DNA of 56,873 nt from Candidatus Cloacimonadota bacterium (GTDB lineage: Bacteria > Muiribacteriota > UBA6191), in assembly GCA_019454875.1 (NCBI GenBank), contig JACFNL010000011.1, positions 1 through 56,873 of the forward strand. The letters run 5' to 3'. This document shows positions 79 through 45,459 of the stretch, piece by piece (position 1 is the first letter of the stretch; the number at the start of each line of letters is the position of its first letter). The notes under the pieces are model-generated. The model saw only the letters and a list, made by a program, of their open reading frames with translations. It was not told where the DNA came from and searched no databases. Position numbers and translations under genes: made by a program.

Positions 79-1467
79 TCAAGCCGCGTTTTTTCGAGGT
101 TTTGGCTTGGTATCCGCTTTTTCTGACTCAGGGTGGCCTGTACCAAGATTTAGCACATCAGCCAGAAATCCCAGTTCTGAAAACAGCCTGCTATTCATTT
201 TGTGATTTGGAGTCTGAAGGGTAAATCCGTAGTCTGAACCAGGGTTTTTGCTTCTGAATTCCAGTTGATTCAGTTGATTCAGTCCAAACTCAACCAGGGT
301 ATTGTTAAGATTGGCCTTTTCAATCAGAGAAAACAGACTTTGTTTGGAATAGGAGGTGGATTTTCCTTCTTCGCCCAACATAATCCAGTGGCTGCGATTG
401 CCGTCTGTATCGGCTACACGAAATTGTAACCTGTCCTGTATAGTGATCTGGGAGGGGCTGTCTGGGGTCTGAAGCTCAAGTCTGGCTGAGGTGCCGCCCT
501 TGCCTAATGTGGCATACCCAGAATTTGATTGATTCATACCCACAGAAAAATTTCCGGGCAGGCGAATCAGGCGAAAACCATTGTCTGTGCCACCTTCGGC
601 ACTTTCAAAAACCATCTGCCCAGCATCGTTGTAGCGAGCTACCACAGCTCCGCCAATCTGTTCCGAAAAAGCTTCGTTGTAAAGTTTTAAGATTTCATCA
701 CCACTTAAAAACTCGCGATCACTGATCTCTGGGGTCATAATTTTATGGTCATTGTACTGTCCATCAGAAGACCAGTAGCGCAGGGCAACCCGATTTCCCC
801 CAGATGATACCTGGCGACCATCAGCCAGACGGTTTTCAGAGGTGGCAAAAGCCTTTTCCCCTCCGCTGCCATTGACTTTAAGGCGGGAACTACCAAAAAA
901 GCGGGCAAATTCTTCGTTGCCTTCCAGTGAGATTTCCGATGTGTCTCCTGTTTCAGAAGTATTTAGAAATACCCTGCCGTCTTCACTGGAGGCCGTGATA
1001 TCTACCCGGCGGGTTGCTCGTTGTGATGCAATGGCGGAATTGATCTGATCGGCTATCTGGCTGGCTGAATAACTTCCAGGTCTAAAGGATACCTTAACTG
1101 GTTCAGAATGTGCGGACAGGCGCGATGATAATACATCATGGGAGTTGGTATCCGAGATGGTAAAGGACATTTCATTTTTAAACTCATAAACTGGTGTGGT
1201 GGCAATTCCACGGGCAATAGCTGGATTTAATGGTTCTACGACCGGTGCAGACTGCAATAGATTCCGAAAGAACAAATCACTAGGGTTTAAGGTAGGCGGG
1301 TTTACCGTCTGTACATTTAATGAAACGACAGAATCTGTTTCCTCGATATGTGCCTGTTCAGCACCTAAAACTGCAGCAAAGGCATTGGTTTCAACAGGAT
1401 TTTTTTTGGATAATTCTGTCAGGCTGTTTTTTACAATCAGAGGCTGAATCAGTTGATCGATTTGCAT
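79..1467 (-). CDS. Flagellin-IN-motif-like repeat protein, putative flagellar-regulon member
   Basis: A 462-residue protein with no signal peptide and no obvious membrane segment. I see three tandem copies of one pattern, at about residues 100-182, 226-302 and 346-418. Each has a beta strand, a short helix (QIADQINSAI, ILKLYNEAF, LFSLIEKANL) and a paired strand with a Gly-rich turn (VFLNTSETG, MVFESAEGG, LEFRSKNPG). This resembles the IN motif of flagellins and hook-associated proteins. Residues 1-95 look like a disordered leader and the C-terminus is basic. The start follows a GGAGCAAGGAT ribosome site. A sigma-28-type promoter lies just upstream, so expression with late flagellar genes is inferred. 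No other flagellar gene is nearby and no family name can be given. Confidence 0.6.
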   Translation of the reverse strand: MQIDQLIQPLIVKNSLTELSKKNPVETNAFAAVLGAEQAHIEETDSVVSLNVQTVNPPTLNPSDLFFRNLLQSAPVVEPLNPAIARGIATTPVYEFKNEMSFTISDTNSHDVLSSRLSAHSEPVKVSFRPGSYSASQIADQINSAIASQRATRRVDITASSEDGRVFLNTSETGDTSEISLEGNEEFARFFGSSRLKVNGSGGEKAFATSENRLADGRQVSSGGNRVALRYWSSDGQYNDHKIMTPEISDREFLSGDEILKLYNEAFSEQIGGAVVARYNDAGQMVFESAEGGTDNGFRLIRLPGNFSVGMNQSNSGYATLGKGGTSARLELQTPDSPSQITIQDRLQFRVADTDGNRSHWIMLGEEGKSTSYSKQSLFSLIEKANLNNTLVEFGLNQLNQLEFRSKNPGSDYGFTLQTPNHKMNSRLFSELGFLADVLNLGTGHPESEKADTKPKPRKNAA

Positions 1468-1513
1468 ATCCTTGCTCCGTTAGTCACTATGATACAAACT
1501 CGTACCATAATAA

Positions 1514-1541
1514 TTATCGGCAAACATAAACAAACCAATTA
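1514..1541 (-). promoter_or_regulatory. Sigma-28 (FliA)-type promoter
   Basis: On the minus strand the -10 box GCCGATAA (1514-1521) matches the sigma-28 consensus exactly. It is preceded at 16 nt by TAAT (1538-1541), one mismatch from TAAA. The predicted start of transcription is about 40 nt ahead of the ATG at 1467. The usual spacing is 15 nt, so the -35 part is weaker than the -10. Confidence 0.55.
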
Positions 1542-45137: not shown

Positions 45138-45410
45138 TTATTCAGCTAACAGAACAATTGCTTTTTCAGGTTGAATGTTGGCCTGAGTATGAACACTACG
45201 AACTGGAACCATCAGCATCACTTCCTGAATCAGAGAAGATGCCACCATCGCCGTTTTTCTATCCACAGGGGACAAAACACTAACAGTCTTGCTTATTGCC
45301 TTGTCTGAAATTGAAAACTCAGGACTCATCTTGAGTTCAACCTCAATATTTGCGTTTTGAAAAATGACTCCGGCTTCTGTATTCAGGTTTTGTTTCATTA
45401 CAAGTTTCAT
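45138..45410 (-). CDS. Small protein of unknown function behind a sigma-28-type promoter
   Basis: A 90-residue protein without signal peptide or Cys, predicted beta-rich: AGVIFQNANIEVELKMSPEF, KTVSVLSPVDRKTAMVASS and VMLMVPVRSVHTQAN. I do not recognise the family. A GGGAG ribosome site lies 6 nt upstream of the ATG, and a well-matched sigma-28-type promoter lies upstream. It should be expressed with late flagellar/chemotaxis genes (inference), though nothing in the sequence resembles flagellin, FlgM or CheW. It ends before a strong terminator and is therefore monocistronic. Confidence 0.62.
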   Translation of the reverse strand: MKLVMKQNLNTEAGVIFQNANIEVELKMSPEFSISDKAISKTVSVLSPVDRKTAMVASSLIQEVMLMVPVRSVHTQANIQPEKAIVLLAE

Positions 45411-45431: not shown

Positions 45432-45459
45432 TTATCGGCAGTAAACTTGTCAATCTTTA
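45432..45459 (-). promoter_or_regulatory. Sigma-28 (FliA)-type promoter
   Basis: On the minus strand, TAAA (45456-45459), 16 nt and GCCGATAA (45432-45439): both elements match the sigma-28 consensus, with a spacer one base longer than usual. The -35 lies inside the 3' end of the upstream gene. The inferred leader is about 15-20 nt. Confidence 0.65.

Follow-up and report, generated by a model that had tools for sequence, protein, structure and literature searches.

We found that the window, the whole stretch of 56,873 nucleotides of DNA that was analysed, almost certainly carries, judging from homology and domain content, a stand-alone flagellin outer-domain protein without a filament core. 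The 462-aa protein is encoded by an intact open reading frame (ORF). We read it as a flagellin-derived protein that would be transcribed by FliA, exported through the flagellum and docked on the filament, and we give this whole chain a probability of about 0.4. The features concerned are as follows:

79–1467, minus strand: ORF of the predicted coreless flagellin outer-domain protein (homology and absence of Flagellin_N and Flagellin_C)
1216–1467, minus strand: N-terminal tail, residues 1–84, polar and poorly conserved (AlphaFold pLDDT 24–29)
880–1197, minus strand: repeat 1, about residues 91–196, Flagellin_IN-like (alignment, hhalign, AlphaFold)
514–852, minus strand: repeat 2, about residues 206–318, Flagellin_IN-like (alignment, hhalign, AlphaFold)
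148–495, minus strand: repeat 3, about residues 325–440, Flagellin_IN-like (alignment, hhalign, AlphaFold)
1514–1541, minus strand: promoter-like element TAAT-N16-GCCGATAA of FliA/sigma-28 type, with 46 bp between its end and the ATG, kept in the orthologue of the sister species

In sequence comparisons, residues 84–447 of the window protein align with residues 355–731 of a flagellin on contig C175 (E 9.7e-29), and residues 92–414 with residues 354–685 of a flagellin on contig C189 (E 6.3e-28); the flagellins on contig C56 match more weakly. In the flagellins of this genome, which are 830–880 aa long, the aligned part is the central region of outer domains. Within its own genome the protein has seven matches, namely itself, a second stand-alone gene on contig C93 and five flagellins, and it has five in G003, the sister species and the only other genome of the genus examined. 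The long frames among these matches (674–908 aa) are flagellins with Flagellin_N, and Flagellin_C is also present in three of the four that were scanned whole. The homology spans all three repeats; in a 13-row alignment, GxGG linkers are common to the rows, as is GRLxFxS as the closing motif. The initial annotation had tied the protein to the flagellum by its layout and promoter, a link that the homology to the genome's own flagellins now bears out; every genome with a homologue carries flagellins, and no homologue was found in a non-flagellated species.

Pfam finds neither the Flagellin_N (PF00669) core helices, which are present in the related flagellins, nor those of Flagellin_C (PF00700) in the window protein. 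The homology of the outer region combined with the missing core domains argues for a coreless, stand-alone protein that, by its domain make-up, cannot polymerise by itself or build the filament core. Since the filament-building parts are absent, its probable place of action is at the flagellum or close to it, not as a filament builder. Searches of Pfam, NCBIfam and PDB sequences with the window protein gave no match above noise; a weak match to a BON domain (E 0.06) was discarded.

Three repeats of one layout are discernible in the 13-row alignment. Compared with each other by hhalign, the repeats do match, with scores of 82, 87 and 92% (P 1e-5 to 7e-7). In profile–profile comparison with the Flagellin_IN stretches of the phylum, they scored 89, 93 and 87%. 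Reversed and 30 column-shuffled controls per comparison reached at most 7.6%, and shuffled profiles against the Flagellin_IN stretches at most 1.1%. The repeat reading depends on the flagellin rows, because profiles built from the four stand-alone rows alone give only 1–62%, and 23–62% against the Flagellin_IN stretches. The Pfam Flagellin_IN model (PF07196) gives no match over its curated cut-off, and a model built from the phylum's Flagellin_IN stretches yields one weak match per repeat, 13.8 bits in total. Thus, of the triple Flagellin_IN layout claimed initially, the three repeats and their profile–profile likeness to Flagellin_IN hold, while membership by the Pfam model does not; the window domains are also longer than the motif found in FliD and flagellins.

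AlphaFold models from a two-sequence input were weak (pLDDT 42 for the whole protein and 65 for domain 1) but agree in secondary structure, showing a threefold succession of strands, a single helix and further strands. In a Foldseek search with domain 1, five of the top six matches were FliD D2–D3 and cap complexes, all non-significant at E 0.4 or worse. With models this weak and matches below significance, assigning a fold from them was dropped.

These matches, together with the Flagellin_IN motifs that FliD contains, would suit a cap-, hook- or junction-associated protein, for example a FliD-like plug of Flagellin_IN-type domains. We consider this improbable, as Pfam finds neither FliD_N (PF02465) nor FliD_C (PF07195) in the window protein, its sequence homology is to flagellins and not to FliD, and an ordinary FliD is encoded on contig C190. 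Membership of the FliD family itself was ruled out on the same grounds.

Upstream of the gene, GCCGATAA lies at 1514–1521 on the minus strand, 46 bp before the ATG, with TAAT 16 bases further upstream. The window contains three copies of the motif, where 0.8 would be expected. The element scores 11 of 12 against TAAA-N16-GCCGATAA, with a spacing of 16, and the G003 orthologue has one at the same distance that scores 10 of 12. A chance origin, though possible, is unlikely, because only 8 of 2000 fragments of 150 bp drawn at random from the window score at least 11 and because the element is conserved in the orthologue. The sigma-28-type promoter proposed earlier is thereby supported, and we regard control of the gene by FliA as likely on these sequence grounds. 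At 1500–1555, TATCGG ... CCGATA forms a partial inverted repeat that overlaps the element, so that a weaker FliA-like site can also be read on the plus strand, in antisense orientation to a phospholipase D-like gene at 1576–2979.

As the initial annotation stated, the gene lies outside any flagellar cluster: Pfam finds no flagellar gene among 30 other ORFs of the window, a set that includes part of the small ORFs. A DNA polymerase III alpha-like ORF lies downstream of the orthologue in G003, the only genome in which this neighbour can be read because the window starts at the first base of its contig. Flagellar genes are present elsewhere in the genome, including those for FliA (contig C94), FlhA (C49) and FliD.

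Exact TAAA-N15/16-GCCGATA sites are not enriched genome-wide, with five sites against eight for the backward control. The five precede fliD, a gene for a YjfB_motility protein, a gene for a 90-aa protein in the window, a flagellin (481 bp before its start) and one gene without a flagellar link here. Despite the total, the genes behind these sites fit FliA. The YjfB_motility protein (61 aa, Pfam E 6e-7) is encoded on the minus strand of L053, 9 bp past a perfect FliA-type site. Among the paralogues and relatives of the window gene, the stand-alone gene on C93 lacks a good box in the roughly 400 bp around its start in this genome, its G003 orthologue has the box GCCGATAG (9 of 12), and no good box lies near the starts of the C56 flagellins.

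The 90-aa protein, which has no Pfam family, is encoded at 45141–45410 on the minus strand, with a perfect TAAA-N16-GCCGATAA upstream at 45432–45459 on the same strand. Each of the family's four genomes retains both protein and site (site scores 12, 12, 10 and 10 of 12), and the gene is probably a second FliA-regulated gene of the window.

The second stand-alone gene (contig C93, L009:1201–3000, minus strand) encodes 570 aa and is 49% identical to the window protein over 390 residues; it adds a linker rich in proline and glycine and, at the C-terminus, a conserved tail. Both stand-alone genes have intact orthologues in G003. The window protein and its orthologue are 75% identical, with dN 0.18 and a dS of about 2.5 that is near saturation, giving a ratio of 0.07; for the C93 pair dS is saturated. 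Only these two genomes, both incomplete assemblies, carry stand-alone copies. None was found in the sister genus, where a sister-flagellin outer region used as the query gave only long flagellin frames, or in 36 other genomes of the phylum, of which only G020 gave a match, and this was a flagellin.

A tree built from 23 outer regions places the four stand-alone proteins in one clade (100/99), joined next by C175 (99/98) and C189 (94/93), whose exact placement is uncertain because both are long branches. Given the homology and the direction of loss suggested by this tree, we infer that the window gene goes back to a flagellin whose core helices were lost at both the N- and the C-terminus. The flagellin on C175 (L012:382–2922, plus strand) has Flagellin_N and the outer domains, ends before the Flagellin_C region is complete, and has no continuation of that region in any of the three frames of its strand; core-domain loss thus occurred more than once in the lineage. 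Such repeated loss might suggest that the window gene is a functionless, decaying flagellin relic, perhaps an assembly artefact. This is highly improbable, since both genomes have the ORF intact and next to the same gene, dN/dS is low, the promoter is conserved and both paralogues are kept, and a pseudogene was rejected on this evidence.

The gene would probably be transcribed by FliA alongside the late flagellar genes, as the promoter suggests. The protein would probably leave the cell through the flagellar export channel by means of its unstructured N-terminal tail, residues 1–84, which may serve as an export signal. None of the four stand-alone proteins contains cysteine or a hydrophobic stretch of the Sec-signal or transmembrane type. 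The protein might instead be a cytoplasmic decoy, tuning flagellin supply by binding a chaperone, a modifying enzyme or another protein that has flagellin outer domains as its target. The lack of a recognisable export signal would agree with this, as would co-regulation with late flagellar genes. However, flagellar export signals are hard to recognise from sequence anyway, an exported filament protein would be expected to lack cysteine, as this one does, and no partner chaperone or modifying enzyme was identified; we find a decoy role hard to credit.

Outside the cell, the coreless protein would most likely bind the assembled filament of giant flagellins at its outer domains, using the outer-domain contacts that flagellins form among themselves, and once bound it would alter the filament surface. 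In known flagellins, outer domains form dimers or tetramers that give the filament a sheath or a screw-like surface (PMC8931119), which offers a plausible attachment route for a coreless copy. We propose docking tentatively. Alternatively, the protein could be exported by the flagellum and then be soluble or remain at the cell surface, its outer-domain fold binding particles or neighbours. A precedent with the same type of promoter is given by the Fed proteins of Campylobacter, which depend on sigma-28 and are secreted along with the flagellum (PMC5223770), and the missing core domains would suit such a role. This rather unlikely alternative also relies on a presumed export, and a role on the filament is the simpler one for a protein homologous to the surface of the flagellins in its own genome.

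Campylobacter FlaC is a secreted, unusual flagellin, and in domain make-up the window protein differs from it by retaining the outer domains alone. The likeness between the two is that of a flagellin-derived protein outside motility use (PMC4863622). Giant or outer-domain-rich FliC flagellins (PMC6248924, PMC8931119) share with the window protein a three-domain outer region, homologous here to flagellins of its own genome, whereas the window protein lacks Flagellin_N and Flagellin_C. Fed proteins resemble it, by description, in the proposed sigma-28 control, in not being filament subunits and in lying outside flagellar clusters, but no origin from flagellin outer domains has been described for them. 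The Leptospira sheath proteins FcpA and FcpB (PMC7065911, PMC5953323) are separate filament-coating proteins, as we propose for the window protein; they coat periplasmic flagella, however, and the likeness is one of description. Titles and abstracts on accessory filament proteins and giant flagellins, mostly from outside subscription journals, mention no stand-alone outer-domain protein.

Flagellin outer domains are normally part of the filament-building subunit. If our reading is true, a conserved gene for outer domains alone, driven by a late flagellar promoter, would uncouple the filament surface from the filament core. A further and more doubtful possibility is a two-part filament in this lineage, in which a flagellin core is combined with separately encoded, docking outer-domain proteins that could be exchanged or varied in amount while the core stays the same. 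With the window protein, the ability of outer domains to work in trans can be tested directly, and the lineage lets core-domain loss be followed from complete flagellins, through the C175 flagellin without Flagellin_C, to stand-alone proteins without either core domain.
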